This document shows, one piece after another, positions 21,141 through 60,751 of a stretch of DNA of 64,000 bases (position 1 is the first letter of the stretch; each line of letters opens with the position of its first letter). The stretch covers positions 1 through 64,000 of the forward strand of contig NW_026570330.1 in NCBI RefSeq assembly GCF_019649055.1. Reading direction: 5' to 3'. A model generated the notes under the pieces. That model had not been told where the DNA came from, ran no database searches, and worked only from the letters and a program-made list of their open reading frames with translations. Made by a program: the position numbers and the translations under genes. The DNA is from Paramacrobiotus metropolitanus (Eukaryota > Tardigrada > Eutardigrada > Parachela > Macrobiotidae).

Positions 21141-21192
21141 TACAAGCGCATATGTACGCCAGAATAAGAACGTGGTACCGTACGGTATTTAT
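21141..21192 (-). pseudogene. Type-1 knottin gene remnant, cut by the retroelement
   Basis: Reading leftwards from 21192, the sequence matches the first 17 codons of the signal peptide of the intact genes at 40.3 and 53.5 kb, but the start codon is ATA instead of ATG. Homology stops at about 21141, exactly where retroelement sequence begins. Upstream (21193-21600) the promoter-side flank of the same gene type is still recognisable. The body of the gene is missing. Either the element inserted here or a deletion joined the two. Confidence 0.65.
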
Positions 21193-21600
21193 GATGGTTA
21201 ACTCAAGCCGATCTGGCTCCAGTTCGTATCTAGTGAATAGTAGATTAACCTGTGCGCGAGAACCAGCAGAGAAATAAGCGCAAATTAGTCATTCCAGCTA
21301 GAATACCGCGATGCTTATAATATCGTGCCTGGTCAGCACTGGTATCCGGTCATATTGATCTAAACTAAGAGATAAGTGCTATCTGCATAAGACCTTCAAA
21401 CTGGTCATAGGCAAATGACACAATCATTGCACTAACGTGTACCAAATATAACCACGTACAGGTACTAGTAAATGGACTGATGTAGTCGGTTTAATTTTGA
21501 TAAAACGATTTACACAAATCCACAATTCTGACTATCCTGAGACGGATGTGACTGTAGCGCCATCAACCAGCAGGTTGTGGCAATGACTCGCCTTTTTTAA
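21193..21600 (-). other. Decayed type-1 knottin promoter flank
   Basis: Shares long stretches with the 5' flanks of the genes at 28.3, 40.7 and 53.8 kb, e.g. GGTATCCGGTCATATTGAT, AACTAAGAGATAA and CACAATTCTGACT, in the same order. A TATA-like TTATAA is present near 21316. There is no coding sequence. Confidence 0.6.
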
Positions 21601-21664
21601 AAACTAAAACAGCAGCTGACCTGAGCGATATATTATCGTGTACTGATGAAACGGCATCGCGAAG

Positions 21665-21994
21665 CTACCCTGATTTTAGTTTGGGCGGTGGAAGCGTGCG
21701 GTATGCCGGCACATCGAAGTAGTCGTTGATATGCCGACATTCCACACTCTTCCGCCGACTAAAATACAGATTACGCCGCTGGTAGCTGTTGCTACCGTCC
21801 GGAGCACGATAGCCCTTCGTGCCAAATAGACTGTCAAGGCCGCCACGGAGGCCCGTAAATTCGCCGGAAGCGGCGTTGCCGTACGGTAAAGGCGACCCGT
21901 GTCGGCCACGGTTAGAGGAACTGAAAAGAAGGTTACTGTGATTTTTAAAAACATCAACCATTACGCCAAAACACCCAGACAATTCTGCAGTCAA
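21665..21994 (-). pseudogene. Type-3 knottin relic
   Basis: The frame encodes a Gly-rich prodomain-like stretch, a dibasic RRKS and then ECRHINDY, which matches ECRHINNY at the start of the knot in the intact type-3 gene at 57.7 kb. After this the sequence departs: none of the remaining five cysteines is present, and no signal peptide is visible at the N-terminal side. It is a truncated paralogue without a functional knot. Confidence 0.6.
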
Positions 21995-23219
21995 AAATGC
22001 ATTTCTTGTAAGGCAATGCTGGATTCAGTACTGATCACAAGCTGCTGCTAAAAATACTGTACTTCCTCTTTTCCGTCAATTTTTTTGCGTCATTTCCGTC
22101 TTGATTGCAGGTGATGTAATTGCTACACCGTAATCCTTATTGGTGCAATCTATAATACTTTTTCGTCAATGTACTAATCAGGGTGCTGCTGAATGCTGAT
22201 CGATACCGGACGAATAGTACGTAGTATGGTGTGCAAGCTTGTCCGGTAATTTCCTACGTAAAGGTACAGACAGCTAGCGCGAAGTCTGCGCTTATAACGA
22301 TGGCTACTTCACTACGTTTATCAAATTGCCTAAATGCGCTCCGCAGTTAGATTGCCGCTTACTGCACCTACCGTTCTCTAGCACCATCCATCAGGCAATA
22401 ACGATTGTACTCATTAAAATACGTGCACCGACCCACCAGCCAGCCAAACGCATGTTACTTGTGTAAGCAGTGTGGCTTAGCGCCCCGTTGTTTGGATTTT
22501 GGCGTAACAAGCAAATTTGTATATTTCGCTGCATTAATCGTCAGAAAATACCGGACAAGCTTGTATGCTTTCTTCTTGTTTATCTTGAAAGTTGAACGTA
22601 TAATTATGATGACGTAGTAGAGACCGACGCCGTACAAATCCAGCATAACATGCCAACTGGAATGAAAACAAAAGCCAGACGAGTATGCTGTATTAGTTCT
22701 TGTATATGAGAGCTAGGTTGTTCCACTATACCATCAAAGTTATTGGTTGTGAGTAGTCGAATGACTGGGTTGCTTTTATGGGTATAGTAAACAGCAAACC
22801 TTACTTAGTAAGCCAATTTTGCGATTTACTAATGAAGTAAAACGTAAGTAGACAGCAAAACAGGAATGTAAACGTAAGAGCAGCCACCTCATGAGAAGTA
22901 AATAGTAGTAGTAAGTAACAGTAAGGGGTGTAAAATGGAGAAAGTTTAATTAGTATACTAACAGAATGGCCCGCAACAAATGTAACGCGGTCGGCAGTAC
23001 AGAAACTCTGTTAAACTCGCATTTTCCGTATGATTCACGTTTCACAATACAGATTTTCGCATACAGTGTAAATTTTCGCTGCAGCGTAAAAGGGCAAAGT
23101 AAGTAAGCGGTGGAGCGATACTGATCGTGAATACAAATGTCCATGTACGCTTTTTACGCGTAAGCAAAATAGCAATGCATACACTGGAGCATTATGGATG
23201 ACAAAAACGTGAGACGCTT
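21995..23219. other. Gene-free stretch with a duplicated segment
   Basis: No gene recognised. Positions about 22,236-22,470 match about 49,558-49,790 in order and orientation (GCTTGT(C/T)CGG, CTAAAGGTACA, GCGCTCCGCAG, CCAGCCAGCCA), and a shorter part recurs at 39,340-39,400. The remainder is AT-rich. Confidence 0.5.
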
Positions 23220-23610
23220 TTAGAGACAGACGCCGTGTTGGCCGGGGAAGCGGACGTAGCAGTTGCTGTTGCAGCAGTGCTCGTTGAAGTAGCAGTAGTT
23301 GTTGATGTGCCGGCATTCCGCGGCACTCTCCCGCCCCTCTTAACCACGCCCATTGAAGTTGATAGTGCCTCCCTTTCCTCCCAACCCGACACCGAAGATG
23401 CCTCAGCCTCCCTGTCCTCCATTGGCAACATAGGTGGTGAATCCTCCGCCTGAAGATTTTCCGGTCGGCTGCATACGTTTCGGCATGCGGGGCAATCCGG
23501 AGCCCATGCTGTCCAGTTCCGCAGAATCGAAGGCCTCGCTGTTTATCGGATAGAGCGAGAGAAGGCATAAACGCCGACAGAGTAACAACAAGAGAAACCG
23601 AAGGCGCCAT
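23220..23610 (-). pseudogene. Type-3 knottin pseudogene with intact cysteine pattern
   Basis: An ATG at 23610 opens a hydrophobic signal-like start, but the frame must shift within the first 20-25 codons. The next frame carries AFDSAELDSMGSGL (compare AFDFAKLAGIGSGL at 57.7 kb) and a Gly-rich prodomain, then two in-frame stops (TGA near 23403, TAA near 23341). Between and after them the prodomain motif GLGGKGGTINFNGRG is still readable. Downstream all six cysteines are kept as C-X6-C-X5-CC-X3-C-X10-C, ending at TAA 23220-23222. The knot region seems better preserved than the prodomain. Alternative: sequencing errors, which would need three independent changes. Confidence 0.7.
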
Positions 23611-24295
23611 TTTTCTCGGTGGACAAAATTATGCCTTGTATTAATTTTTTCAACAAATGTTATACTATTAATTATTGAACTGGGAACGAATTAGGGCAAA
23701 TTCAGAAAGGCAGCGATATTAGGCGCAGGTCTTAAGTAGCGCTTGGACGGCTGTGGAATCGCCGATGCTTATCGGCGATTGCAGGCGATAATACGATATC
23801 GGCGTTGGCTCATGACGCTTTGGTAGCTTACGGAACTAAGCAGATGAAATTGGTGCGCCATGGCTGCGTACGTAATTAATGGATCCCAGAAGAATGTCCA
23901 ACAGTTAACTATCTGGACTACATAAGCTGTCTTCACATGTTTTCAAACTGTTACTGGTCAATGTTTAATACAAGTGCGAGATGATGGGTCTGTAAAGCCA
24001 GTAAAGGTACACAAATATGTTTTCGATCTATGTACTCATTACGGATCACGTTCCACCATAGTGTAATTACATATATAGCAGACAGTGAGATTTCTCTCAA
24101 GCGTAGCTGATTAACTTGAAACCGTATGTTAACAAAACTCCATTACGCAGAGATGGGATGGTGTAATAGAGACATTACGTACATGGCTTTCTATCCTGAG
24201 AGCAACGGTGTGCCATGGTTCTCTATTAAAGAATATGACATACCCTACGGTGTGCCATGGTTCTCTATTCTGTGAGCACATACAAATAATACAAG
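23611..24295. other. No gene recognised
   Basis: AT-rich. The phrase GTGTGCCATGGTTCTCTATT occurs at 24208 and again at 24250, a short direct repeat beside the retroelement fragment that follows. Confidence 0.4.
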
Positions 24296-25259
24296 TTGGC
24301 ATCGGTGTACGCTGTGCAGCCTCTCGTTTCCAGATTTTGCGCGCCATCTGGTGACCATATGACGCAATCGGCTGTAGAGAACTGGCTTCAGATGACACAC
24401 TGCTCGCTACCAGAAGATTGTGTGCGAAAGTTTCAGTACGTGTGGGATGTACCGATGATTGACAGGGATGTATCAAAACTGATGTTATCAACGGTTGGTA
24501 ATGAGCGCGCAAGAGCCGTATTGTTGGCTGCATTTAGCAGAGATTCTGGGGCCTGGCTGAATGCATTACCGGCGCCTTGTCTTGGAACGTTTTTACGAGA
24601 TGAAGAAGCCAGAGTAGGAGTGGCATTACGTTTTGGATTGCCCGTAGTGACAGCTCATAACTGCGTGGCATGTGGCGAATTAGTGGAAACGAATGGTCAT
24701 CGCGGGCTTTCCTGCAATAAATCAACGAAAGGGCGATGGGCCAGACATAGATAGAGAAATGAACAGTATTGCCAAAAACTGTTGCGAGAGTGCAGGATTC
24801 CCATGTCAACTGGAACCAACAGGCCTATCACCAAGTGCGGCGATTCGACCTGACGGCATGACGCTTATTCCAGTCCGGCAAGGAAAGTCTGTTGTATGGG
24901 ATGTCACAAGTTGGTGCACAGTAGCCGATTCCCATGTCCACGGAAGTTCGAAGAAGGCAGGAAGTGTGGCCCACCTGGCAGAAAATGAGAAGCGACGGCA
25001 GTACTCTCCACTGGAAAGCAGACACCTTTTCTATCCCTTAGTTGTTGAAACGTTCGGTGTCTTTGGCCTAGCTTTAAGTGAATTTGTACATTTTATGGGC
25101 CTTAAAACTCGTGAATTAACTGGAGAAGCGCGTTCTACTGCTTTTATGAAGCAACGTTTTAGTTTGGCTGTCATTAAGGGAAATGCTACTGCTGTGTTAA
25201 GTACGTTGCCTTTTAACCCGCGGGCGGATAGAGATTTTGGTTGTTTTTTTAATGTTTAA
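24296..25259 (+). pseudogene. Non-LTR retrotransposon fragment (C-terminal endonuclease part)
   Basis: Matches the last third of the RT protein at 42.8-44.8 kb: GAWLNALPAP, then a CX2C...HRGLSC zinc motif, then the nuclease-like block IRPDGMTLIP...VVWDVTSW, then VVETFGVFG, FMKQRFSLAV and GNATAVLSTL. The frame changes once near 24,725 (between GRWARH and EMNSIAKN), so it is broken. No RT palm is present: the copy is 5'-truncated before the catalytic domain. It has diverged strongly from the 42.8 kb copy, so it is an older or different lineage. An AATAAA lies at about 25,320. No TSD was found. Confidence 0.78.
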
Positions 25260-25687: not shown

Positions 25688-25696
25688 GCAAGAAAT

Positions 25697-25885
25697 GGCC
25701 AATGTCAAAAAGAGGAAGGAAATTTTAGAGGAAGGAAATTTTGTGTGGTCAAAAGGAGGAAGGAAATTTTAGAGGAAGGAAATTTTGTGTGGTCAAAAGG
25801 AGGAAGGAAATTTTAGAGGAAGGAAACTTTTCGGGGTCAAAAGGAGGAAGGAATTTTTCGGGTCAAAAAGAGGAAGGAAAATTTC
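25697..25885 (+). repeat. Left terminal inverted repeat with subrepeats
   Basis: Contains about three copies of a GGTCAAAAGGAGGAAGGAA-type subunit with alternating AATTTT spacers; complementary to 27190-27384. Confidence 0.85.
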
Positions 25886-27189: not shown

Positions 27190-27384
27190 GAAAATTTTTG
27201 ATTTTTGCCTGAAAAAACTCCTTTATCTTTTTGACCCGAAAACTTTCCTTCCTCCTTTTGACCCGAAAACTTTCCTTCCTCCTTTTGACCCAGAAAAGTT
27301 TCCTTCCTCTAAAACTTCCTTCCTCCTTTTGACCACACAAAATTTCCTTCCTCTAAAATTTCCTTCCTCCTTTTGACATTGGCC
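27190..27384 (-). repeat. Right terminal inverted repeat with subrepeats
   Basis: Reverse complement of the left end, with one or two additional subunits (TTTTCGGGTCAAAAGG) towards the interior. Confidence 0.85.
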
Positions 27385-27931: not shown

Positions 27932-28292
27932 TTATCGACAGAAACCGGGATAGCCGGAAATCGGAGCAAGGCACGAACCTGCAACAGTGATGGCTAAAAA
28001 GACAGCGGCTCCCAACGCGCCGGCATTCAGTGCCGCTAGCGACCGCGCCGGGCGTAAACGTATGGACCATTCCGTTGCTGTCGACGTAGACGCTTATACC
28101 GGGCGCTCCGTATCCACTGCCGCCCTGCGCAATGTTAAGCACGCTCCCGTCACCGGAAAGGAACGTTCCGGCGTGACCTGCGGCAACCGCAGCGCCACCT
28201 GTCCGTCCAGCGGCCACCGACGTCCAGGATTGAGAATACATAAGAACGCATAAACACCCAAGAGTAAGAATGTGCTTTCGTACGGTATACAT
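27932..28292 (-). pseudogene. Type-1 knottin gene inactivated by one-base frameshift
   Basis: ATG at 28292. Signal peptide (MYTVRKHILTLGCLCVLMYS) and Gly/Ala-rich prodomain with SVYVDSNGMVHTF are intact, as are the first four knot cysteines (C-X6-C-X5-CC). Directly after CC one base is missing compared with the 40.3 and 53.5 kb genes, so the last two cysteines are out of frame; in the alternative frame they are still present and end at TAA 27932-27934. The shifted frame runs on to 27669, giving a nonsensical 100-residue tail. A TATATAAG box lies at 28410-28417, about 120 bp upstream, as in the intact copies. The loss looks recent. Confidence 0.82.
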
Positions 28293-31200
28293 GGCGGTTT
28301 ACTTGAATCGACCAGGCTTAAGTTAAAGTTCCTTAATAACGGATTATCCGATACTCGAAAACTGACAAATAAAATAAATTAGTATCGTTCCGGCTAGAAT
28401 ACCACAGTGCTTATATACCATGCTTGGTGAACACTAGTATCCGGTCAAATTGATGTACACTTGGAGATAACTGCTATCTGTAAACTGGTCATATTGTTGT
28501 CAAATGACACGTAACATTGATGTGTACCAACGATAATCAAGTAAGCAAACGGATTGTATCGGCTGTAATCTCGATCATGCACGGGAATGCTGAGACGGAA
28601 GTGACGGTAGCGTCATCCTCTTACGCTGCTTCCGTTCCAGGTGGTATACCTGACACAGTGGTGGTTTGCATGATGGAACCTTCTGATAAATGCAGCATTC
28701 CAGAAAAGTTAATGGCTTGCTAAAACGTTGTTATCACCGTGAGACTGTTGTAAAACATTTGCGAGAGCTGCGCTGATTGTACCAGAAACGTCTGGTGGAC
28801 ATACGGCTGGTACTTGACTAGTTGTAATCATTATCTAAACAGATCAGCTCGGTGGTCGGGAAAACATCGACAGAAAAGAAATCTTGAACGCTACACTAGT
28901 GCTGATCAGACCTGGCTAAACATTTGGCAGATGTTTTTGCTGAAGTAGGGTCTTCAGTTAAGTTGTAAATTATTGCATTAATTAATGACACCTCAAGCAT
29001 GCGGATTAAAACGTGCCTGCGGCCCTGCTGTACAATTCGTTTGTGTGTACGCAGCACGATTCATTTAACAGTCAGTGCTTGCGTTTTCTCTGGTGATCCA
29101 CTGCTTATTACTGGTCCAACGCATTTGTATTTTTTGCTGTGTGTCATCCATCGGTGACGCATTCTCCTTTCACATTTTATTTCGCGATATCTTTCTTGAG
29201 AAGATTAGCTAGGATTGATCGGGCCTACTGCACATTTTCTGTCGTATATGGTCCATAGAACAACCACACGATTGTCACGAACGCCCTGCACGGCTTGTGG
29301 AACACGGAATATGGCCAGATTTCAGCATGAGCTGCCAGCCATTGGCTGCATCCGAAACTAGTAACCTTCGATATTCCGCGAATTAAAGACGTGAAAGAAC
29401 CGATGTTTTTTGTGGGCAGATACTGATAGGCTACGTTAAAGTAGAGTTCACGAGAATGTTTTTCGGGCGTTGGGCGGGCCAGGTTTTTACTCCCGCGTAA
29501 TCGTACGTAACGGCCGGTGTACATAACTTTCCGGTCAATGGAACAAGTAGCTTTTCGGTGGTTTGGTTCTTCGAATCAAGCGACTTCTTTCATGTATCGC
29601 TTTTATTCGGGCCAGTACGTCGGTCATTTTGCAGCACAAAACTCTATCTATACCGGCATTTTTACGCATTTTTAGATAGAAAGCAGAATATGTCCCGCGG
29701 AATCCGACACAATACTACAAATCGACATACACGCTACTTCTTACTTTTTTAAATAGAGATTTATGACTATTACCATGGAGCTTGGACGTGTTTAATAGCT
29801 GTTGCCTTCACGCCAGCTGGAAAATCACTTCGCTTATCTCTATATAATAATCGCGTAAGCCTTAATCTTTGTTGAGTCCGTCAGCTCGACGCACTGATCC
29901 AAACTGCCGTGACAATGTATCATTCGATAGCCCTTAAAGTGTAGGTTAGCCATCACAAATCAGTTTTTGAAGAAAATAAGTTTGAAAGAAAACTTTCAAA
30001 AACATTAACATACAAAGTCTATGGGAAAAGCTAAGAACCCACCACTGCTAAATCGACCAGTCCATCACTGTCTCAACAGCCAACACGCTTTTTTGCGAGT
30101 TTCGATGCAGATGGAAGGAACTTAACGTTCTATAACAGATAACATTCCATCGTTTTTAATGTATATTTCTCATCAAATTTAGTTTTGAAAAATAAAATGA
30201 AGCGAAAGAAAGAAGACAAAATAGCCGCGAAGATTATGATTATGCGTCAGTAGGATGGTTCTGAAGTCTGATTTTAAAACGTACCTGACCCCCGCAGTGG
30301 TTTATTTAGTTTCCGCTTAACTACGCTGTGAAATGCCTTCCCGGGCGGGCGCGATTGCCTTTCTTGGCTGAACTGCCTGCGATTTAAGGGAAATTTGCTA
30401 CTTTTTTGGTTTCAATAGATAAGGTGGTGTTGAGAAAGACATACGGGGAACTTGGAATATTTAAGATTTGCTTCGAAGAACAGCAAGCTGTTTGCTTCGC
30501 ATGTTACGTGGTGTTTGGATTAAAGAACGTCTGATACATATCAATGCAAATCCAACTTTCTGCACAAGCTAAATCATGTTCGGTTTAAAAATGGGTGGGG
30601 TGGAACTGAATGTGGAGCGAATTGTACTATGTAAGGCGGAATGCTGCATTGTTAAGTAAAAAAGGACAAATGAATTTTTCAGTTCGCTGTACATCGGTAG
30701 CATGCTGGAAAGCGAAGTAGCAGGCGACGCCGAGCTGCGGCGCAAGCGGAGCCCGCGAAGCAGCAAGCATGTAAGAATTTCGCTTAAAGTTCTCGCTTTG
30801 AAGAAAAATTACCGTAAAAGCGAAGATGGAAACCCAACGAAATGCGTTTGTTCTTATTTAAATTTAAAGCGTGCGAATGTGTTCTGTGGTAAGGGCAATG
30901 GTAAAAAAGAAACGGCGATAGCAAGAAGAACAGTTACTCTGTTTGTGTACTGATCGTTTAGCTGGCCAGGTGGTATAAAGGGCACCATTGGTGTCAGTAT
31001 TCAAATTGGGATTTAAAGTACAAGTAAACTGTTATCGGAAAGTCTACGGCTCTACAGCTTAAAAAAGCGCAGAATGACAAAAATGGGAACGGAGAGCAAC
31101 TTCTAATAAATTACGGATGCTCTCTTCAACAGGTGCACGAAATTTAAATGACTGGATAAGTGATCTGGAAAATAAAATAGATGGAAAACTAATGAGCAAA

Positions 31201-40315: not shown

Positions 40316-40678
40316 TCAAAGGCAGAAACCGGGATAACCAGAAATCGGAGCAAGACATGAACCGCTGCAACAGTGACGCTTGAAAAGACAGCGGCTCCCA
40401 GCGCGCCGGCACTCCGTGCCGCTGGCGACCGTGCCGGGTGTAAACGTATGAACCATGCCGTTACTGTCGACGTAGACGCTCGTACCGGGCCCTCCGTATC
40501 CACTGCCGCCCTGCGCAATGTTGATCACGCTCCCGTCAGCGGAAACGAACGTTCCGGCTTGGCCTCCGGCAGCAGCGGCGCCTCCCGTTCGTCCAGCGGC
40601 CACGTGCGTCCACGATAGAGCACACACAAGAGCGCATACGTACGCCAGAGCAAGAATGTGTTTTCCTGTAGTGTACAT
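40316..40678 (-). CDS. Type-1 secreted knottin precursor (intact)
   Basis: 120 residues. Start at the ATG 40678, the same Met as in the paralogues; the frame is open 28 codons further upstream but that part is promoter sequence. Residues 1-about 26 are a signal peptide (MYTTGKHILALAYVCALVCA). The prodomain is Gly/Ala-rich with INIAQGGSGYGG and TSVYVDSNGMVHTF. The C-terminal 36 residues carry six cysteines as C-X6-C-X5-CC-X3-C-X10-C, the inhibitor-cystine-knot spacing known from defence peptides, venom peptides and antimicrobial peptides. No dibasic site directly precedes the knot. A TATA-like TTATATTATA lies at 40791-40800, about 115 bp upstream. Target and role are unknown; secretion is expected. 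Confidence 0.85.
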   Translation of the reverse strand: MYTTGKHILALAYVCALVCALSWTHVAAGRTGGAAAAGGQAGTFVSADGSVINIAQGGSGYGGPGTSVYVDSNGMVHTFTPGTVASGTECRRAGSRCLFKRHCCSGSCLAPISGYPGFCL

Positions 40679-40800: not shown

Positions 40801-41888
40801 CCGTGAGTGTTTAACACTGATATCCGGTCGTCATGATGTAAACTAAGAGATAACTGCTATCCGCGCAAGATCTTTAAACTGGTCATAGGCAAGCGACAGT
40901 CATTACGCTAATGTATACCTCTATCCGCCATAATCATGGATGTTTTCGGTTTAATCTTGATGTCGCACACATGCACAATTCTGACTGTACGGAGACGGAT
41001 TTGACGGTAGCACCCTAAGCGGTAAGGGGCTTCCGTTATAGGAGGAAGAAAATTAAGTTGGTGTGTTGATGGAATCTTCCGATTAATACAGCATTTCAGA
41101 CAAGTTTAACTAGGCAGTTCGCCGAAGCGTTGTAATCACAATGTACTGTGCATCGGCAGAAGCTTTACTGATTGTACCAGAAATCTCTTGTATGCGCACA
41201 AATGCAGCGGCAATCATAATCTTTAACACATTTGCTAGCTGGTCGAGCAAAAAATATTGGCTGAAAAGAAATCTCGACCACTACGTTGGACCGCTGATAT
41301 CGCATATGTATTTTGTAAAGGACAACCATAACCTTCATTGCGAGGCCCAGTCCGTAAACCCGCAAATATCTCGTCGTGAAAGAACCCATGTTTTCTGAAA
41401 ACAGACAACTATGTTTAGTATGTTACGTTATCGTAGTGTGCCGGCGGTGGTTCTCGGGCACCGTGCACTATGGGCAGCGTTTTCGTCCGCATGCAACGCG
41501 TCAATGTGAATGGATCAAATACGTAGATTTTCGGTAATTCTATCATTTGGAATCTAGCGACCGGAGTTTCTTAGTCATTCGACTACGCGCAAGATTCCAG
41601 TTGATAAGATGCAATCAGTATCTTGCTTGTCGATGCTTTTGACTATGGGTCCAGTGCAACACTACACAGCTGATCGCTGCTGGAAGTAAGATGGATATTT
41701 AATAATGTTGCACGTGTTTTAGCGAGTATCTTGAATCTCCACGCGCGTCGGCTGAGTAGCATATCTGCGTGACACACTTCATACTTCGTGGAACGATCGG
41801 TGAATTTTTCGTCATTTCCTTCACTGTTACGCTAAGGCAAATGACGACATCAAATTTACTGACTAACTAGACTGCTTTGTTCCTGATC
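40801..41888. other. Shared region between divergent type-1 and type-2 genes
   Basis: Noncoding, 1.1 kb. Alignable over most of its length with 53,940-55,700 (minus the 54.1 kb element). Conservation of the whole divergent interval suggests recent duplication rather than selection. No other gene. Confidence 0.6.
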
Positions 41889-42066: not shown

Positions 42067-42465
42067 ATGCATTTCTCGATATCTGTGGCAAGCACAATTT
42101 CCGTGGTGTATCTGTTGGTTTGCGGACATTTTCTAGTTTGTGATGCGTGGGGAACGGTTGCCGGTGGAGTGGGACTGGGCATCCTGACTGCGTTATCCGG
42201 GAGTGGCAGTGGAAACGGAGGCGGCGGAGGAGGATCCAACACCAACATCGCACATGGCGGCATCGGATTGGGCGGTCAAGGAGGCAGCGTCTACATCGAC
42301 ATGAGCGGTCGTTCTGCAGGTGGCAGCAGCGGCTTCGAGCGGCGCAGTCACGGCCGGAGGAAGCGTGCCGTTTTCGGCGTATGCCGGGCCTTGTACAGAC
42401 CCTGTGCTATCAACTTTCAGTGCTGCAGTCGTCTCTGTACACGCGGGTTTTGCCGAATCTCTTAG
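42067..42465 (+). CDS. Type-2 secreted knottin precursor (intact)
   Basis: 132 residues. A signal peptide (hydrophobic VVYLLVCGHFLVC, cleavage near Asp-Ala-Trp-Gly) is followed by the Gly-rich prodomain with GGGGGGSN and the family motif GGIGLGGQGGSVYIDMSGRS, then RRSHGRRKR, a good furin-type processing site. The 32-residue C-terminal peptide after KR has C-X6-C-X5-CC-X3-C-X4-C. The short last loop distinguishes it from types 1 and 3. Two polyadenylation signals (42600 and 42616) follow 135-150 bp after the stop. It lies divergent to the type-1 gene at 40.3 kb. Likely an extracellular peptide; its role (antimicrobial, toxin-like or structural) cannot be told from sequence. Confidence 0.88.
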   Translation: MHFSISVASTISVVYLLVCGHFLVCDAWGTVAGGVGLGILTALSGSGSGNGGGGGGSNTNIAHGGIGLGGQGGSVYIDMSGRSAGGSSGFERRSHGRRKRAVFGVCRALYRPCAINFQCCSRLCTRGFCRIS

Positions 42466-42788: not shown

Positions 42789-44765
42789 ATGGGGCAACGT
42801 CGTAAAAGCTTTCAACCAGAAGGACTGACGCTACGCCGTATTATCGCTAAAATTGTCTGTACGAAAGTAGCCGACAAAGTAACTGCAACCCTCTGCCCGC
42901 TGCAGTTAGGATTCAACGCACGTGGTGGTGCTGAGGCCATAGTCCATGGTACCAGAAGATACATCGAGTCAGATCCCGAGACCGTAAAAGCCGTATTGAA
43001 AGTCGACTTCAAGAACGCATTCAACACCGTGTCCAGAGAAGCTGTGTTGGACGCTGCGCGTACATACTTTCCGGAATACAGTGCGTTCCTGCAATCGGTT
43101 TACGGATATCATTCGTCTCTGTTTTTGGACGACCATATTTTAACATCGGAGTCTGGCGTACAGCAGGGAGATCCTTTGGGGCCACTGTTATTCTGTCTCG
43201 TTCTCCACATTCTGGTCATTACCTTAACCACCGAACTGAACGCCTGGTTTTTGGACGACGGGACATTAGGCGGTTCCCCTGCGAGCGTCCTCGACAATTT
43301 TGCTCGAATTGTTAAAGACGCGCATTCTATTGGGCTGGACATAAACATTGCGAAGTGCGAACTATTTGTTTGCGGAGGGACGGAGGACGCTCGACAAGAC
43401 GTAATTGCTGACTTTATTGCCCGGTACCCTCAGCTCCGCGTCATGACCAGCTCTACCCTTACGCTGCTTGGAGCTCCTGTGTTAGACGATGCGATTGGCC
43501 CATCACTCACGGAGAAAGCTACAACACTGACTAAGGTTTGCGAGAGACTCCAGCTGCTGCCACGTCATCATGCGCTGTACCTTCTCAGACATTGCCTCGG
43601 CGCGCCGAAAGTTGTTTACATGCTGAGATGCCCTAACGCTTGGAGGTACCCACAGCAGCTCTACGAAATAGATGAGATGGTGCGTTCCTGTTTTCAGGTT
43701 CTGTGTAATGTCAGAACAACTCACGACGACTACCCATGCTGGCGACAGGCCAGTTTGCCCGTCAGCAGGGGCGGTATTGGCATACGCCGGTCGGAGGAAT
43801 TAGCGCTTCCAGCCTTTCTGGCTTCGATTCACTCCGTATCGGATATGGTGTCTGCACTGCTCCCTGGCTTTGCGACTGTTGATCTGACAAATGCTTTCGA
43901 ATTATGGAAGAAGAACGCCTGCCAACCCGATCTGCCTGAGCCGAATTTCCGAAAACAACAGAAAACCTGGGATATACCACTATGCAACGTATCTTTGTCC
44001 ACCCTGCTGGAGGTTTACCGCGATGATGATGTTAACAAAGCGCGCCTTCTAGCACAGTCAAGACCGGAAGCCGGGATCTGGTTAAATGCGTTGCCTTCCG
44101 CCCACATTGGCAATCTCCATGATGATGACACTCTAAAAATCTCCGTTGGCCTCAGACTGGGTGTGGCCATATGCGAACCCCATGAATGCATGAAGTGCCA
44201 GAAGCACGTCGACAAATACGGACACCACGGTCTTTCCTGTGCATTCTCTGCCGGTAGACACCCACGACACGGAGCACTGAACAGCATTATGTGTCGATCT
44301 TGTGTTTCGGCTGGAATTCCGGCAAAACTGGAGCCTCGTGGCACTTCACATACTTCCGAGAGACGCCCAGACGGTTGCACAACCTTTGCCTGGCAGAGAA
44401 GAATGTGCCTAGCTTGGGACGTCACTTGTGTTGACACTGTTGCACCATCTCACATAAAGTCTACGGCAGCTAACGCAGGTGCAGCTGCTTCGGAAGCGGA
44501 AGAAAAGAAGTCGCGGCTCTATTTTTACCTAAATGGCCGGTACATTTTTGCACCGATAGCTTTCGAAACAATGGGCCCATGGGGACCGTCAGCTATAGCC
44601 ATTGTTAAAGAGCTGGGCAAACGACTGAAACAACATACTGGCGAAAGCCGTTCCCATGAATTTTTGCGTCAGAGATTATCACTGGAGATACAACGGGGTA
44701 ACGCAGCATCGGTTTTGGGAACAATGGAAGGAGCAGAAAAGTTTAATGAACTTTTGATGTTATAA
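42789..44765 (+). CDS. Non-LTR retrotransposon RT-endonuclease, 5'-truncated
   Basis: 658 codons. The first 12 codons from ATG 42789 are host flank fused in frame; element sequence starts at 42824. RT: a conserved GGAEAIVHGTRRYI block (about 46-59), motif A KVDFKNAFN (Asp about 73), motif B SGVQQGDPLGPLLF (about 122-135), and catalytic FLDD (154-157). The C-terminal half has a CX2C...HHGLSC zinc motif (about 467-484) and a PD-(D/E)XK-like block RRPDG...WDVTC (about 526-543), i.e. a restriction-like endonuclease as in the R2 superclade. An upstream AP-type nuclease is absent, but 5' truncation could explain that. The RT palm begins without the fingers, so the protein is probably inactive although the frame is uninterrupted. 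Confidence 0.85.
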   Translation: MGQRRKSFQPEGLTLRRIIAKIVCTKVADKVTATLCPLQLGFNARGGAEAIVHGTRRYIESDPETVKAVLKVDFKNAFNTVSREAVLDAARTYFPEYSAFLQSVYGYHSSLFLDDHILTSESGVQQGDPLGPLLFCLVLHILVITLTTELNAWFLDDGTLGGSPASVLDNFARIVKDAHSIGLDINIAKCELFVCGGTEDARQDVIADFIARYPQLRVMTSSTLTLLGAPVLDDAIGPSLTEKATTLTKVCERLQLLPRHHALYLLRHCLGAPKVVYMLRCPNAWRYPQQLYEIDEMVRSCFQVLCNVRTTHDDYPCWRQASLPVSRGGIGIRRSEELALPAFLASIHSVSDMVSALLPGFATVDLTNAFELWKKNACQPDLPEPNFRKQQKTWDIPLCNVSLSTLLEVYRDDDVNKARLLAQSRPEAGIWLNALPSAHIGNLHDDDTLKISVGLRLGVAICEPHECMKCQKHVDKYGHHGLSCAFSAGRHPRHGALNSIMCRSCVSAGIPAKLEPRGTSHTSERRPDGCTTFAWQRRMCLAWDVTCVDTVAPSHIKSTAANAGAAASEAEEKKSRLYFYLNGRYIFAPIAFETMGPWGPSAIAIVKELGKRLKQHTGESRSHEFLRQRLSLEIQRGNAASVLGTMEGAEKFNELLML

Positions 44766-44861: not shown

Positions 44862-44865
44862 TGGT

Positions 44866-45689
44866 GATCTGTTCATTTGTCCGACTACTGGGGTGTGGTG
44901 AGAATTAATTTCAGCTGGATTGGTCTGTTTTCTCGGTTGTGTCCCCGTGTTACAACTGTTCCAGTTGTTTTTATGCTTCTTCAGTTAAACCGGGTTCAAA
45001 ATCCACGCAGAAATGATAACCGAATCATAACCGAATCTGTACTAACTGTTCCGTTGAGAATTGAAAAGAGCAAATGAAAAAGACAACGACAACCTTTGCG
45101 AGACACGCCTATGTCACCGACTAAAGCGTTCGGACGACCATGACGTCACGGCGTCGGCTGGCGTCGCCTTGGGGAATTCGTGTACTTCGCGGAATTCGTG
45201 TACAGGCTTGTACATACGTACATACAACTGTCAATCAGCCCATTCAATGAATGAAGTACTCTGTACGTACAGTACATGTATAGAAATACCGCTCCTGCTA
45301 TTGCGCTAGATCACTGGCACGCTGCGCCTCCGCCCTCTTCCGGTTCAATCGTACTTGTTACTGTTCTTAAAATGGTTTTCGATGTTCTTTTCTCAAAAAC
45401 AGGAAATTTCCTGCAAGGTTAAAACTGAAATTTGCTTGGTATTCTCATTGTGACAGTTCTGACTGGAATTTGGAAAAATGTTAAAGTAATGGTCATTTGC
45501 GCACCCTGCCATGATTGTAAGCAGTCAGGTAAACTATGACACTGCTCCTTCGCCGTAAACATAAATAAATTTTTTGACGTAACGTACCAATGATTAATTA
45601 TTCCTTATTTAAACATTTAATTTTCACCCAACTGTATACAAGATGTGTAGTTTTAAGCTGTAGGTAACCCTTGTGCAATGCTTTATTAT
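44866..45689. other. Cassette tail, noncoding
   Basis: Aligns with 56,680-57,480 of copy B (TTTCAGCTGGATTGGTCTGT, CGGACGACCA(T/C)GACGTC). No coding region recognised. Confidence 0.6.
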
Positions 45690-45873
45690 GCCGAGTGTGC
45701 CTGGTTGTTATTGGACCCTCCCCCGCCTCCACTTCCGACGCCCTTGTTCCCCATTGTCGTCAAGGCCGAACCAATGCCCACCAATTTGCAAAATCGAAGG
45801 CACTGCTCATTTGCAAGCAAACGCATAAACACACTGCTAACATAGCCAGATGACTGAACCGCTGAAAATTCAT
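45690..45873 (-). pseudogene. Type-3 knottin, truncated and frameshifted
   Basis: ATG at 45873. A clear signal peptide (MNFQRFSHLAMLAVCLCVCL) is followed by AFDFAN, then a frameshift relative to the 57.7 kb gene. In the other frame the GSGGGGSNNNQAH prodomain part continues and stops at about 45690. The GGQGGSVFID motif, the processing site and all cysteines are deleted. The TATA region upstream (about 45,995) has lost its TATAAAAG. Confidence 0.75.
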
Positions 45874-46363
45874 TGTGGTCGGACAGTGACTCTTCTTAAC
45901 TACAGAATTCGGTAAATACTGTGACAGAACAACATAAACCCCCAGTTGCTTGAAGTAGGAAAGAAAATATTCTGCGTCGTTGAATGGTAGGCTTGCTGCT
46001 TTTTCTGGGTTGGTTCCGGTTAAGCCATAGGTCCTTAATCAGTGTAACACGTTTGAGATTCAGCGCCTCATCCTGCCAGTGTCGCAAAGTCCCGGGAGGA
46101 AAACCGGGATGTAAAGGTGAAAGATGCAATTTCGGTTACGCCTGTGGATGGAAAAAATCATCTGAGAATTACTGTCAGTCACGAGGCTGTGGAGAAGGAT
46201 GCGGAAGATGGGGAGATGTTGTACCCGGAAGCGTTCTCCACGTTCCGTCCGCCGGCACGCGACCAGCTACGGCAGCGGCTGAAGGGCGGACCGGCTTAGT
46301 AGTTCTGATTAATGGCGACTGCGCAGTTTACGAATGTGCAACGATTTACTGGGAATACAATAA
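45874..46363. other. No intact gene
   Basis: A 5' flank of the truncated type-3 gene, then sequence with short open stretches (45984-46376) lacking recognisable domains. Confidence 0.35.
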
Positions 46364-47825: not shown

Positions 47826-49031
47826 TTACGTTGTCATGGGCGGTGTGCCCTCGCGTCTGGATAATTTCGTCGTTATCCACGTTTGTAGCCATCTCACAAA
47901 ATCCCAATCATTCATAGTAATCTCGAAAACATTCTTTACAATAAACACAAACGTGCTTTCGGTAAACTGGTTCATGGACCAGAGATAAATACGAATGGTA
48001 AGAAAGGGAATATTTTCCAGGAATAAATTCAGCATCTGATGAATCATTTTCCAAATTTTCCGCGGTCGATCATGCGCGAAATTCGTGCCGCTCAGCTGGA
48101 ATAAACCAATTGTCGGCAGAAAGATCTGGATGGACACAAACAGCAGAATGGCATACTTGACCGCCGGCTGCATCTTTGGCTGTTCGGCGTGACCATCATC
48201 ATACAGGAAATTCAGTAATTCCACGGAATCAATGATGTCCATCAGTACTCTGCCGGTCAGATAACTGATGACGGCTCGTTGCTGTTCCTGTCCGCGGGGA
48301 ATCTGCTTGTGTCCCAACACCACGAAGGCAAATACACACGCTGTGCTGACGAACGCCAGCTCCAGCATGTTGGACTTGAAGAGCAGTTTCACGTCCAGCT
48401 GTTGGCCGTGCCGCAGCAGTATAACCAGCATTTTGCCGATCAGTATCGAGGAATAAATTGCCCAGCTGATGTAGGCCAGCGGCAGTGCTCCCAGATGGTA
48501 TTTCGTCCGCAGTCTGCCCGCTTTGAGATGCTGCATCTTTTTATCATCGCGCGCTTTATTAAGCCGGTCCGATAAATCGATATTTTCGGCAACATTTCGA
48601 TTATTGTGGGCATTACTGTCTTCTCCGATAACACGGCAAATATCTTCATGCTGCTCTTGGTGATATCCATCGTCCGCATCGTCAACGTTGTCGTTTGCCG
48701 TCAAATTCCGGTTATCTTCCTCTTGTTCATTGGCAACGGTTTTGTTGGTATCATCCGCGCTGATGGCTACTGCACGTAGAGGAACGGACACTGCATCTTT
48801 TTCGCATGATTGGCTTTTGAAGTATAGATCTGCATAAACATAAGATACCACAAACGTTGCGGCCACGATACAATCCGCCGCAATCCAGCCGTACGAAGCC
48901 TGGCTGCCGTAGTAAATTAAGTACCAATCCAGGATAACCGCTTGCAAGATAATGGTAACGAGACTAGCCGCGCGATGAAAACATTCCCCAATGGTCGGTA
49001 GCGGCAGACAAAAAATATGGTGCCGACTCAT
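47826..49031 (-). CDS. TMEM26-like multi-pass membrane protein
   Basis: 401 residues from the ATG at 49031; the GTG just before is not used. Hydrophobic segments lie at about 20-42, 48-68, 187-207, 220-240, 290-312 and, weakly, 340-385. Two blocks resemble TMEM26 family proteins: GRVLMDIIDSVELLNFLYDD (compare the 'aaDiLEF' region) and ENIPFLTIRIYLW...FVFIVKNVFEI (compare 'dgPFLvvRl...FFavKN'). Between the second and third membrane segments is an unusually long acidic, Asn-rich loop (about 75-175). TMEM26 function is poorly known; the protein should reside in a cell membrane. It is intronless and the only conventional-looking host gene in the window. Confidence 0.6.
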   Translation of the reverse strand: MSRHHIFCLPLPTIGECFHRAASLVTIILQAVILDWYLIYYGSQASYGWIAADCIVAATFVVSYVYADLYFKSQSCEKDAVSVPLRAVAISADDTNKTVANEQEEDNRNLTANDNVDDADDGYHQEQHEDICRVIGEDSNAHNNRNVAENIDLSDRLNKARDDKKMQHLKAGRLRTKYHLGALPLAYISWAIYSSILIGKMLVILLRHGQQLDVKLLFKSNMLELAFVSTACVFAFVVLGHKQIPRGQEQQRAVISYLTGRVLMDIIDSVELLNFLYDDGHAEQPKMQPAVKYAILLFVSIQIFLPTIGLFQLSGTNFAHDRPRKIWKMIHQMLNLFLENIPFLTIRIYLWSMNQFTESTFVFIVKNVFEITMNDWDFVRWLQTWITTKLSRREGTPPMTT

Positions 49032-51686: not shown

Positions 51687-51689
51687 AAT

Positions 51690-53453: not shown

Positions 53454-53816
53454 TTAAAGGCAGAAACCGGGATAACCAGAAATCGGAGCAAGACATGAAC
53501 CGCTGCAACAGTGACGCTTGAAAAGACAGCGGCGCCCAGCGCGCCGGCACTCCGCGCCGCTGGCGACCGTGTCGGGTGTAAACGTATGAACCAGTCCGTT
53601 GCTGTCGACGTAGACGCTCGTACCAGGCGCTCCGAATCCACTTCCTCCTTGTGCAATGTTGATCACGCTCCCGTCAGCGGAAATGAACGTTCCGGCTTGG
53701 CCCCCGGCAGCAGCAGCGCCGCCTGTCCGTCCAGCGGCCACGTGCGTCCAGGAATGAGCATACACAAGAGCGCATGTGTACGCCAGAGCAAGAATGTGCT
53801 TACGCGCAGTGTACAT
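53454..53816 (-). CDS. Type-1 secreted knottin precursor (intact)
   Basis: 120 residues, paralogue of the 40.3 kb gene. ATG at 53816, giving MYTARKHILALAYTCALVYA as signal peptide. The prodomain has INIAQGGSGFGAPG and SVYVDSNGLVHTF. The six cysteines keep C-X6-C-X5-CC-X3-C-X10-C. The mature part differs from 40.3 kb only at isolated positions (e.g. AGRRC versus AGSRC), and both frames are open, consistent with selection to keep the peptide. A TATATAAG box lies at 53933-53940, 120 bp before the ATG. Confidence 0.85.
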   Translation of the reverse strand: MYTARKHILALAYTCALVYAHSWTHVAAGRTGGAAAAGGQAGTFISADGSVINIAQGGSGFGAPGTSVYVDSNGLVHTFTPDTVASGAECRRAGRRCLFKRHCCSGSCLAPISGYPGFCL

Positions 53817-54877: not shown

Positions 54878-55704
54878 TTCATAAATTCTGACAGTACGGA
54901 GACGGAAGTGACGGTAGCAGAATGCGTGGTACGTGGCTTTCCTGCTAGGCGGAAGCAAAAGTCACCAAGTTGTTGTGTTGATGGGACCTTCCGATTAATA
55001 CAGCATTTCAGAAAAGTAGGCGATCACAATCTGAAATACATCTACGCGCTGGTCGGCAAATACATCTACGCGCAAAAGTCGGCTGAAAAGAAATTTCGAC
55101 CAGAAGTCCAGATACTCCAGATAAATGCTGTCGTATATTATGTATTTTCCATAGGACAACCACAACCTTCGTACGAAGGATAATTTATTGCGAAAGGAAA
55201 TCAAGGGCGTGAAGAAACCCATGTCTTCTGAAAACAGACATGTTACACGTACTAGTACGTTAGTGCAGTGTGCGGGCGGTGGCTCTCGGGCGCTGCACCC
55301 TACGGGTAGCGTTCATATTCGCACAAAACTCATCAAATGTCAATGGAGCAAATAACTAGATTTTCGGTAATTCCATCACTTCGAACCTCGCGACCGGCGT
55401 TTCTTAGTCATTTGACTACGCGCGAGATTCTAGTTGATAAGATGCGATCAGTATCTATTTTCTTGATGCTTTGGACTACGACTCCTATGCAAGTTCCAAC
55501 ACTACACAGCCGATCGCTGCCGGAAGCATGATGGACATCTAATAATGCTGCACGTGTTTTAGCGACTATCTTTAATCTCCACATGCGTCGGCCGGGTAGC
55601 ATATCTGCGTGAGACACTTCACACTTCATGGAACGATCGGTAACTTTTTTGTCATTTCCTGCACATCAAATTTGCTGACTAACCAGACTGCTACGTTTCT
55701 GATG

Positions 55705-55713: not shown

Positions 55714-55882
55714 CTGACTTGAGCGATTGCTACTTCACACAGTTAATTTTCTTTTACGTAGCGTTTTTGCCATAACTTAGCAGCAATTTGCAAGTCAGCC
55801 AGAAACTCGAGCATACCAAACAGTATCCGCGGCAAGCAATAGCTCCAGTATCCTAACTTTTGCAATCCATTTCTCGTTATCA

Positions 55883-56263
55883 ATGACAAGCGTCGTGTCG
55901 GTGGTGTATTTGTTAGTTTGCGGGCATTTTCTGGTTTGTGACGCGTGGGGAACGGTTGCCGGTGGAGTGGGACTGGGAATCCTCACTGCATTATCCGGAA
56001 GCGGCAGTGGAAGCGGAGGCGGCGGAGGAGGATCCAATACCAACGTCGCACATGGCGGCATCGGCTTGGGAGGTCAAGGAGGCAGCGTCTACATCGACAT
56101 GAGCGGTCGTTCTCCAGGTGCCAGGAGCGGCTTCGAGCGGCGCAGTCACGGCCGGAGGAAGCGTACCGTTTTTAGCGTATGCCGGACCTTGCACAGACCC
56201 TGTGCTATTAACTATCAGTGCTGTAGTCGTCTCTGTACGCGCGGGTTTTGCCGAATCTCTTAG
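55883..56263 (+). CDS. Type-2 secreted knottin precursor (intact, later start)
   Basis: 126 residues. The ATG used in copy A is ATC here (about 55,867), so the start moves to ATG 55883, six residues later. The hydrophobic core VVYLLVCGHFLVC is kept, so secretion should still work. Prodomain, SVYIDMSGRS motif, RRSHGRRKR site and the C-X6-C-X5-CC-X3-C-X4-C pattern are all present. By eye, the mature part differs from 42.07 kb by five amino-acid changes in 32 codons, against about five in the 75-80 codons of the prodomain. Polyadenylation signals follow near 56,399 and 56,415. Confidence 0.85.
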   Translation: MTSVVSVVYLLVCGHFLVCDAWGTVAGGVGLGILTALSGSGSGSGGGGGGSNTNVAHGGIGLGGQGGSVYIDMSGRSPGARSGFERRSHGRRKRTVFSVCRTLHRPCAINYQCCSRLCTRGFCRIS

Positions 56264-57665: not shown

Positions 57666-58067
57666 TTATAGACAGACGCCGTGTTGGCCGACGACTTGGA
57701 CGCGGCAGATGCCGTTGCAGCAGTGCTCGTCGGCGTGGCAGTAGTTGTTGATGTGCCGGCATTCCGCGCGTTTCCAGCGCCTTGCGCCGTTACTGCGCTG
57801 CTCGAAGCCGCCACCCGCAGCGGAACGGCCGCTCATGTCGATGAAGACGCTGCCTCCTTGTCCGCCCAATCCGATGCCGCCGTGTGCCTGGTTGTTGTTG
57901 GATCCTCCTCCGCCTCCACTTCCGCCGCCTTTGATAGCATTCCCCATCGTCGTCAACCCGGAACCGATGCCCGCCAACTTGGCGAAATCGAAGGCATTGC
58001 TCGTTTGCAAGCAAACGCATAAGCATACTGCTACCACTGCCAGATGACTGAACCGCGGAAAATCCAT
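57666..58067 (-). CDS. Type-3 secreted knottin precursor (intact)
   Basis: 133 residues, ATG at 58067. Signal peptide HLAVVAVCLCVCLQTSNA, then FDFAKLAGIGSGL, a Gly/Asn-rich stretch, the family motif GGIGLGGQGGSVFIDMSGRS and RRWKR as processing site. The C-terminal peptide has C-X6-C-X5-CC-X3-C-X10-C and ends GQHGVCL. It is the only intact member of its type here; relics are at 21.7, 23.2, 45.7 and probably 60.4 kb. TATAAAAG lies at 58194-58201 on the minus strand, 130 bp upstream. It is convergent to the type-2 gene at 55.9 kb and divergent from the one at 58.7 kb. Confidence 0.87.
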   Translation of the reverse strand: MDFPRFSHLAVVAVCLCVCLQTSNAFDFAKLAGIGSGLTTMGNAIKGGGSGGGGGSNNNQAHGGIGLGGQGGSVFIDMSGRSAAGGGFEQRSNGARRWKRAECRHINNYCHADEHCCNGICRVQVVGQHGVCL

Positions 58068-58193
58068 GCTTGTCGGACAGAGACTATTCTCAACTGCAGA
58101 ACTCGGTAAATACTGTTAGGGAACAATTTAATCTACCACTTGATTGAAGTATGGAAAGAAAATATTCTGCTTCATTGAACATTAGACTTGCTG

Positions 58194-58201
58194 CTTTTAT
58201 A
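58194..58201 (-). promoter_or_regulatory. TATA box of the type-3 gene
   Basis: TATAAAAG on the minus strand, 130 bp before the ATG; the homologous place near 45,995 is mutated in the truncated copy. Confidence 0.65.
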
Positions 58202-58715
58202 CTGATTGTGTTCCGGTAGTGTCAGAGACCCTTAGTTACTGAACTACGCGTGAGATTCCATTTGATAAGATGCGATCAGTGTACTGCTTGCACGGCATGC
58301 TGTAGTGTTCGATCAGCCAGCGCATCACTACACAGCTGATAGCAGCTGCATCGGAAGTGTGACACATCCAATAAATTTGCACGTGCATTTTTGGGTTACC
58401 TTTGCTCCTGACGTAGGCTGGTTGGCATTTCTGCGAGATATACTACAAATTTCCTCGAACGATCGGTGAAGTCCTTCCACTTTCCTTGTTTCTTCTGCTA
58501 GTCGAGTAATGTCAATGACGATTTCAAGTTCGCTGACTAACCAGATTTCCTGGTTGAGGACGAATAAAAAGCCGCTCTTAAGCGAAGCGGTGTTTATATC
58601 GCAACTGATGCTTGTCTAAGCGTTTGGCCAAGCTTAATTTTCTCAGTCAAGCAGCCAAGTTTTCTGCTTTTTTTTCCGCACCATTTATATTGTCTTGACG
58701 CGCCGAACTTTCACA

Positions 58716-59141
58716 ATGAACTCCAGTATGCCAACGACAGGGGCCGTGTCCGTGTTGTATCTGTTATTTTGCGGGCATTTGCTGGTGTGTGACGCGTGGG
58801 GAACAGTTGCCGGGGGAGTGGGACTGGGCATCCTGACTGCGTTATCCGGAAGCGGCAGTGGAAACGGAGGCGGTGGAGGAGGATCCAACACCAACATCGC
58901 CCATGGCGGGTTCGGGCAGGGAGGTCAAGGAGGCAGCGTCTACATCGATATGAGCGGCCGCTCTTCAAGCGGCAGCAGCGGCTTTGACCGGCGCAGCCAT
59001 GGCCGGAGGAAGCGTGCCGCATGCCGGGGCTTCCTCAGCCACTGTACCTCCAATGCGCAGTGCTGCAGCCGCCGCTGTGGGACCCTGTCAAACCGGAACA
59101 ACCCGGTAGCCGACCTTCGCGTCGGTCGGTATTGCCGATGA
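58716..59141 (+). CDS. Type-2 knottin precursor with long last loop (intact)
   Basis: 141 residues; ATG 58716 is the first ATG of the frame (another at 58728). The signal peptide (VLYLLFCGHLLVC) and the Gly-rich prodomain are nearly identical to the 42.07 and 55.9 kb genes, with GGFGQGGQGGSVYIDMSGRS and RRSHGRRKR. The mature peptide is different: C-X6-C-X5-CC-X3-C-X18-C, i.e. the last loop grows from 4 to 18 residues and the sequence between cysteines is unrelated. A TATA-like AATAAAAAG lies at about 58,563. This shows strong divergence of the knot behind a constant precursor. Confidence 0.86.
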   Translation: MNSSMPTTGAVSVLYLLFCGHLLVCDAWGTVAGGVGLGILTALSGSGSGNGGGGGGSNTNIAHGGFGQGGQGGSVYIDMSGRSSSGSSGFDRRSHGRRKRAACRGFLSHCTSNAQCCSRRCGTLSNRNNPVADLRVGRYCR

Positions 59142-60391
59142 TTCTTTTCTCAGTGACAATTGACAAGTCGATCTTGTACTGCAAGTTGCTTTTCGCTAGG
59201 GTTACCTGAAGCAGTGCCGGCATTTTATTCTTGGAATTGATTTTTCACATGTTCTTCCGATTCACATATCTGTGATCTGGATAATAGCGTGCTAAACCGT
59301 TGTATCCGTACAAGTTCTCATTAAAAAGCCGCAAATGGTAATTTTTAACAGTTTTCCATATATTTCCTTCGGATAGATTGTTTGTTTGTTGTGCTCAATA
59401 TCGGGATGGCATCTGCCTCCTTTAAACTGTAGACACACTATGCTAACTTATAATAAGCTCAAAACAAAGGTCACCGCTCCTTCGATGCCTTACGTTCGGT
59501 GTCTTTATTTGGCATCATCCGATGAACTTTGTAGTGTATGCAATACGTATACCGGCAAACAAGCGGTACTGGCATGTTTTTGCATCAAATTGCAGTTTTT
59601 GTTAGTCAGGTGTCTACTGTCCACTGCAAATCTCTTATTCTGAATATGATATGGTTCTACAGCCAGCGATCGTTCAGACAAATAAATCTGGTTGCTCAGA
59701 AAAGTTGCACTGAAACATTAAGATTTCTGCTTCAGTACATAGCTGCATAAAATAAAGTGTCTATTTTGAAAATATCGGTACAAGCGGAATGTTATTGTAC
59801 TATTAAGAACGAGAATATTAAGTGGAATTTAGGCAGTAACAATTATTGTATAAACCGAATTAACCGATGACCGGCTTCTTTCTGTTTACGATTTTGATGC
59901 ATACATTGGGTTTACTTTAAGTACAGCAAGGCTTAAAATAATAGGTTCACATACAGCCCCATACACCCATAATTTCAATTTCTGGAGGGGATGTCTGCTC
60001 CTCGTTTCTGTTATACATAACATCTGCGTTGTTAATTAGCACGCTGTTGCTTGTTAGTTCCATGCCCAAGAGTCCGACCCTACTCTATATTTCAGAGTCA
60101 GATCCTATTCTATATTTCTGCTTACATCGAGCTGCTGATAGATCAGGAGTTATTTTACGCTTCTGCATATAATCGCTCAAACAGATGTGCAAATTTGTTT
60201 CCTTAGATTGATCAAAATGATTGTAATGCGACAGTTGCAGCATTTCAAAACTCCATTTTCAAACGTTTATCGTCCACAAATACATATAAAACAGATAAAC
60301 GATATTTTATTGTGCTACATGGTATAATATTACATAAATCAAGCATGCGTTATGCGGTAGAAATACAATCTTCGCAAGTACAGAGTGCAGC
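59142..60391. other. No gene recognised
   Basis: AT-rich. Short open frames (59386-59750) lack known features. A phrase AGAGTC(C/A)GA(C/T)CCTA(C/T)TCTATATTTC is repeated at about 60,070 and 60,096. Confidence 0.4.
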
Positions 60392-60751
60392 CTAAGAAGC
60401 AAGCACCGTGTTAATTGACGACGGTGATGTGACATATGTCGTTGAAGTCGGCGTAACAGTTGTTGATTGGTCGGCATTCCGTCTTCGCCGTCCGTGGCTG
60501 CGCCGCTCGAATCCGCTGTTGCCGCTGCTAGAACGGCCGCTCATGTCGATGTAGACGCTGCCTCCTTGTCCGCCCAATCCGGCGCCGCCGTGTGCCTCGT
60601 TGCGACTGGACACTCCTCCGCCGCTGTTGCCTGCTTTCTTGTAGTCTAAACTCAGGAAGTCAAAGATACCCGCCTCACAAGTCAAAAACTGTCCGCACAG
60701 TAGCAGACACGCTACGGACACGGCGCCCGCCATCCACATCCCGGAATGCAT
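60392..60751 (-). pseudogene. Hybrid knottin precursor with lost knot
   Basis: ATG at 60751. The signal peptide (VACLLLCGQFLTC) and the prodomain motif GGAGLGGQGGSVYIDMSGRS with RRSHGRRRR are intact and type-2-like. Behind the processing site the frame carries a Ser/Thr-rich tail with no cysteine. In another frame a type-3-like ECRPINN start is visible, but with only three cysteines, no CC pair and a stop at 60411-60413. So the knot was lost by frameshift plus decay while the prodomain stayed open. It could still make a secreted Gly-rich peptide. Confidence 0.7.

Follow-up and report, generated by a model that had tools for sequence, protein, structure and literature searches.

The first 64,000 nucleotides of contig NW_026570330.1 of the tardigrade Paramacrobiotus metropolitanus (the window) hold the edge of a larger family of genes for secreted cystine-knot precursors. 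The family is real and sizeable and of a known structural kind, and it has an unusual prodomain, a mosaic pattern, and a shared control element. Its anatomy, predicted fold, selection, mosaic pattern, and shared element were computed. We give a probability of about one-half to the reading that these genes form a jointly regulated family of secreted prepropeptides, which would most likely serve in extracellular defense or in hydrolase or channel inhibition at an epithelial surface.

Searches of the entire genome, each with one of four precursors from the family, returned 34, 27, 23, and 26 matches, some split or repeated and all of them lower bounds. Among the genome contigs, the family has at least 36 loci, 34 from tblastn and 2 fragments detected only as DNA. 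Counted by hand, these comprise 21 intact six-cysteine frames, 1 frame that has lost a cysteine (96.9k; loci are named by position in kilobases), 3 frame-shifted but open copies (60.4k, 100.9k, and 109.4k), and 11 broken copies or fragments; the intact genes are 17 of type A, 3 of type B, and 1 on contig C47. All but one of the 36 loci lie at 21 to 110 kb of the window's own contig (C110), where the cluster reaches 109.9k, and at 1.270 to 1.298 Mb of contig C9. Within the window, tblastn found 10 loci and DNA similarity another 2 between positions 21145 and 60751. Six are intact and six are broken, fragmentary, or frame-shifted (Table 1), in agreement with the initial annotation, which had listed 12 loci, six intact and six or more dead. 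Chance open reading frames are rejected because BLAST E values between copies go down to about 1e-52 and synonymous changes exceed nonsynonymous ones in most comparisons.

A type A precursor consists of a hydrophobic N terminus, a variable N-module, a Gly-rich core, RRSHG (in most genes), R-x-K-R, and the knot. The core, which in most genes reads GSNxNxAHGGxGxGGQGGSVYIDMSGR (core motif GGQGGSVYIDMSGR), is shortened in three (98.7k, 107.0k, and 1297.4k of C9). The type A prodomain is 13 to 37% Gly with a net charge of +4 to +11, and the mature peptide has about 33 residues. All 17 intact type A genes have R-x-K-R just before the knot; none of the three type B genes does, and these have a related core (SVYVDSNG), a net prodomain charge of −1 to −3, and no basic site directly before the knot. 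The shared Gly-rich SVY motif noted earlier is present as a related core in both types, but its GGQGGSVYIDMSGRS form is confined to type A. No intron separates the start codon from the knot in any family frame, the C47 gene being a two-exon gene. The knot spacing is C-x6-C-x5-CC-x3-C-x4/10/18-C, and the range given in the initial annotation, C-X6-C-X5-CC-X3-C-X(4-18)-C, holds in the six intact window genes. Intact M1 knots have a net charge of −1 to −3 with two to four histidines, M2-4 knots +3 to +6, and type B knots 0 to +5; antimicrobial peptides are typically, not universally, cationic.

The modeled mature peptide (AlphaFold2) has a compact knot fold with a pLDDT of 92.8. Its structural neighbors are mostly inhibitor cystine knots (ICKs), and profile search matches are mostly cystine-knot toxins (best E, 9.7e-4). 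These results support the knot scaffold that had been proposed from the spacing and, as far as a model can, placement of the mature peptide in the ICK class. ICK spacing falls within CX3-7CX3-8CX0-7CX1-4CX4-13C; 20 of the 21 six-cysteine genes keep to these limits, the exception being 58.7k, whose last loop of 18 exceeds the upper limit.

The prodomain matched no known family, in line with the initial annotation: it had no match in Pfam or NCBIfam, the PDB matches of the full profile were to antibody linkers (best E, 0.0037) and are read as low-complexity Gly matches, and RefSeq contained one uncharacterized protein of the same species. That protein, LOC129597870 of P. metropolitanus, was the single match at E values up to 0.001 among 6454 candidates for a 20-sequence profile. 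Its model names no family and ends in residues other than those of the open frame at 58716-59141, so that the last cysteine is gone; the differing end is perhaps a spurious splice. For the precursors as a whole, a known Pfam or NCBIfam family was rejected, none scoring over the cutoff (Stig1 and UPF0506 came near but stayed below), as were viral relatives (102 pattern matches, none confirmed). The protein search requires shared words and, with the 57666-58067 query, missed the known RefSeq relative, so that its failure is no proof of absence; restriction of the family to this tardigrade's lineage is no more than likely. Among the literature matches listed, no title or abstract opening described the family, and neither "secreted" nor "cysteine" turned up when the text of the paper on the P. 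metropolitanus transcriptome was searched. The fold is a known one, and the family is apparently undescribed.

The known systems nearest to it share parts of this architecture. O-type conotoxins (PF02950) have a CC-containing knot framework, and their conserved prepro region with a variable mature part resembles the M2-4 subset, but the best score here is 21.0 bits against a Pfam cutoff of 25.1, below PF02950 membership. The match to the knottin Dg12a (PDB 6px7), a venom peptide that we take to be from a fly, spans 21 positions and excludes the last loop. Among spider knot toxins, the Shiva superfamily (PMC4029134) and Aps III (PDB 2m36) are prepropeptides, and the Shiva report describes a propeptide of 20 residues that is acidic (−4) and variable. 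The prodomain here is instead long, Gly-rich, and basic in type A, with a conserved core; the arrangement of a short acidic propeptide before a basic site is absent from both types, type A being basic and type B acidic without the basic site. The plant knot peptides SOTI-III, PAFP-S, and bidentatide are fold neighbors that differ in kingdom, precursor, and sequence.

Selection differs between the M1 and the N1xM2-4 genes. Across 13 M1 genes (a set that omits 96.9k, with its lost cysteine), the ratio of nonsynonymous to synonymous changes (pN/pS) is 0.60 in the N-module, 0.35 in the core, and 0.18 in the knot, and five chosen pairs give Fisher p values for the knot of 6e-7 to 0.049. The corresponding ratios are 0.31, 0.17, and 0.70 for the four N1xM2-4 genes, of which 42.0k, 55.9k, and 58.7k lie in the window and 77.1k outside it; in four chosen pairs, the knot is not significant (0.12 to 0.61) and the core is significant in three, the exception being 42.0k/55.9k (p = 0.23). 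The N1xM2-4 genes thus show the toxin superfamily pattern of a mature part faster than the prepro part (0.70 versus 0.17), and M1 shows the opposite (0.18 versus 0.35). Because the order reverses between these groups, the earlier claim that conservation is highest in the prodomain is correct locally but incorrect for the larger group.

Close to the cleavage site, the three frame-shifted copies have a short deletion in common that puts the knot out of frame; a Thr/Ser-rich tail of 21 to 33 residues takes its place, and remnants of the knot are visible in another frame. Their core has a pN/pS of 0.16 (Fisher p values of 0.0008, 0.013, and 0.0008 in three pairs). The 5′ flanks are alike (scores of 51 to 65 versus a shuffled maximum of 29), the 3′ flanks weakly so (23 to 39 versus 26). 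The shift may be recent or may have spread by conversion; otherwise, the prodomain or the new tail is of use. The suggestion that the prodomain has a function of its own gains some support here: it may have its own role because the core is still under purifying selection in three knot-destroyed copies. A tentative extension is that the Gly-rich core is the working module or a delivery cassette for exchangeable payloads, either various knots or the linear Thr/Ser-rich peptide of these three copies. If that were true, this tardigrade would build its peptides in a modular way, with the prodomain rather than the knot as the constant functional part. The family also provides a natural experiment on whether selection can act on a prodomain that lacks its mature peptide.

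Three genes (83.6k, 86.7k, and 90.4k) join an N1 N-module to an M1 knot. Averaged over 45-column windows, the identity of these genes to N1xM2-4 genes is mostly 0.7 to 0.95 along the N-module and drops to 0.4 to 0.6 along the knot; to N2xM1 genes, it is 0.25 to 0.6 along the N-module, with about 0.3 midway, and 0.75 to 0.98 along the knot. The crossover lies in the core. Trees of 16 genes (two N3 genes and the frame-shifted copies were excluded) support each split at 100/100. Exchange or gene conversion between copies, placing different N-modules on one core-plus-knot cassette, is the best reading of these sequences, if not a proven one. It is rather unlikely that the pattern arose without exchange, M1 being ancestral in both N1 and N2 genes and M2-4 having diverged fast. 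Such a history would fit the approximately unbiased (AU) test, which is marginal for the mature part (p = 0.042) and for the N-module does not reject the alternative (p = 0.161), a result that weighs against exchange. It fits poorly with the synonymous divergence (pS) between N1xM1 and N2 genes, which falls from 0.77 for the N-module through 0.43 for the core to 0.32 for the knot, with N-modules that are about 30% identical over their middle, and with the 3′ flank of 90.4k, which matches an N2 gene (score of 94 versus a shuffled maximum of 26). The best scores of the other two 3′ flanks are 25 and 28. On exchange, the family becomes a case of module swapping among small peptides. Across C110:76-110 kb, M1 knot DNA is about 0.75 to 0.98 identical, and in most pairs the scores of the flanks directly downstream of the stop codon are those of shuffled sequence; either conversion is confined to coding sequence or constraint is strong.

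Five pairs of genes stand head to head with 648 to 721 bp between start codons, and three more do so at 1.4 to 2.1 kb. Upstream of many family genes lies a GATA-containing element. Its 15-mer, GATAAGATGCGATCA, occurs 13 times with up to 3 mismatches in C110:1-124000; 11 of these occurrences are just upstream of family loci, one locus being a broken copy. Their offsets are mostly −440 to −500 for N1/N4 starts and −205 to −255 for N2/N3 starts, and 17 of 24 upstream regions contain the 15-mer. The exact 16-mer is found three times genome-wide, always in the family cluster; allowing one mismatch gives 10 occurrences, of which the family holds 5, versus 2 for the reversed pattern. The window has three occurrences versus 0.42 expected, a number reached in none of 100 shuffles. 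The element is the best-conserved alignment block (0.90 versus a mean of 0.61), a contrast that is partly site selection, as the alignment was anchored on it. TGATAA is the intestinal ELT-2 site of Caenorhabditis elegans, but it also lies within 1.5 kb of 54% of random worm genes (PMC4207467); by analogy, the element here may act in the gut.

From these data, we infer cleavage, expression site, and function as follows. The signal peptide would direct the precursor into the secretory pathway. For type A, cutting after R-x-K-R by a furin-like convertase would release an ICK mini-protein of about 33 residues; type B would use another release route, or its knot would stay joined. Many of the genes are probably driven jointly, plausibly in the gut epithelium, by a GATA factor that acts on the shared element lying between head-to-head partners. 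The peptides would form two tiers, the conserved, slightly acidic, His-containing M1 knots being under purifying selection against a stable target and the cationic, faster-changing M2-4 knots resembling defense or toxin peptides. Copies would diversify by duplication and by exchange of N-terminal modules and knot cassettes.

It is doubtful that the peptides are instead endogenous ligands or hydrolase inhibitors, with M1 aimed at a receptor, channel, or digestive enzyme of the animal itself and extra copies serving dosage. M1 does vary little across 13 genes, the opposite of an arms race; the C47 gene carries a similar knot behind another N-terminal part; and fold neighbors include a plant trypsin inhibitor and colipase. 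It would, however, be unusual for a hormone to have 17 intact type A genes beside many broken copies and fast-changing cationic variants. Prey-directed secretion, with the peptides serving as venom or in the saliva of a tardigrade that feeds by stylets, is unlikely. A conserved prepro part before a fast mature region is the cone snail toxin pattern, and N1xM2-4 genes show it (core, 0.17; mature part, 0.70); their knots are cationic, and profile matches are mostly venom knottins. Yet most members are conserved, every score against a Pfam toxin family fell below the cutoff, the spider report (PMC4029134) has the propeptide varying too, and the word venom did not occur in the 8 literature matches listed out of 12.

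Least improbable of none and by far the least likely is a role as structural or desiccation-related secreted proteins, with the Gly-rich part being what counts and the knot serving as anchor. The 13 to 37% Gly of the type A prodomain, conserved even in three knot-less copies, would suit such proteins, but a furin-type site would separate the two parts, and in the largest group conservation is highest in the knot.

A tardigrade immunity survey (PMC7056985) leaves open whether tardigrades have novel antimicrobial peptides, and the one paper listed for tardigrades and cystine knots mentions tardigrades merely in passing. The 36 loci and their shared control element provide a concrete set of candidates.

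The gene outside the two clusters (C47:195132-196236, minus strand) has its knot after a run of five arginines. It shares the knot only, at roughly 50 to 65% identity to family knots over the matched stretch; its N-terminal part is unrelated and lies partly on a separate exon. It is possibly an ancestor or a fusion. The protein search found no relative of its product among 157 candidates. A relative of its first exon, with stops, lies at C64:112886-113125. An aerolysin-like N-terminal part was unsupported in Pfam, and a weak match on C23 was rejected as a Pro-rich frame with no knot.

TABLE 1 Family loci and upstream elements in the window
Feature	Position	Strand	Details
Type B remnant	21145..21561	−	5′ part and upstream flank; blastn 68%/422 bp vs 40.3k unit, 81%/125 bp vs 53.5k unit
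Type A fragment	21684..21715	+	Cleavage site and first cysteine; blastn 87.5%/32 bp vs 57.7k unit, E 1e-4
Broken type A gene	23220..23570	−	One TGA and one TAA inside; blastn 86%/103 bp
Damaged type B gene	27938..28478	−	Frame lost within knot; tblastn/blastn
Intact type B precursor	40316..40678	−	120 aa; C-x6-C-x5-CC-x3-C-x10-C; no dibasic site directly before knot
GATA-containing 16-bp upstream element	41602..41617	+	1 mismatch
Intact type A precursor, N1xM2	42067..42465	+	132 aa; cationic knot; short last loop (x4)
Broken type A gene (N2 type)	45515..46061	−	About 400 bp fewer than 57.7k unit
Intact type B precursor	53454..53816	−	120 aa; duplicate of 40.3k gene
GATA-containing 16-bp upstream element	55435..55450	+	Exact
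Intact type A precursor, N1xM2	55883..56263	+	Duplicate of 42.0k gene
Intact type A precursor, N2xM1	57666..58067	−	133 aa
GATA-containing 16-bp element	58263..58278	+	Exact; inside 648-bp head-to-head intergenic region 58068-58715
Intact type A precursor, N1xM3	58716..59141	+	141 aa; RefSeq LOC129597870
Frame-shifted type A (N4)	60392..60751	−	Prodomain and RRRR site retained; out-of-frame Thr/Ser-rich tail in knot's place

A block at 40 to 46 kb is duplicated at 53 to 58 kb (blastn, 83 to 85% over units of about 1 kb and 80 to 86% over parts of a third unit). A reverse transcriptase frame (RVT_1, 42789-44765) lies between two genes of its first copy, and by eye a C-terminal remnant at 24359-25259 resembles that frame. 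Also by eye, a second small type A fragment lies in the opposite direction at about 21.72 to 21.75 kb, back to back with the first (21684-21760). A CECR6/TMEM121-family gene (47826-49031, minus strand; E 7e-30) sits within the peptide cluster. A scan of the window for Rfam families and tRNAs found none. A short repeat unit at 25704-25885 recurs inverted about 1.4 kb away at 27229-27377 and, by eye, looks like the terminal inverted repeats of a DNA element. Positions 1-18378 are occupied by a large element, A-rich on this strand throughout, with frames for reverse transcriptase (3736-5643) and for RNase H and integrase (5565-7991), then open frames of 2540 aa (8601-16223) and 675 aa (16351-18378), neither of which has a Pfam match at E 0.01. 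From its domain order, we take this element to be Ty3/gypsy-like.

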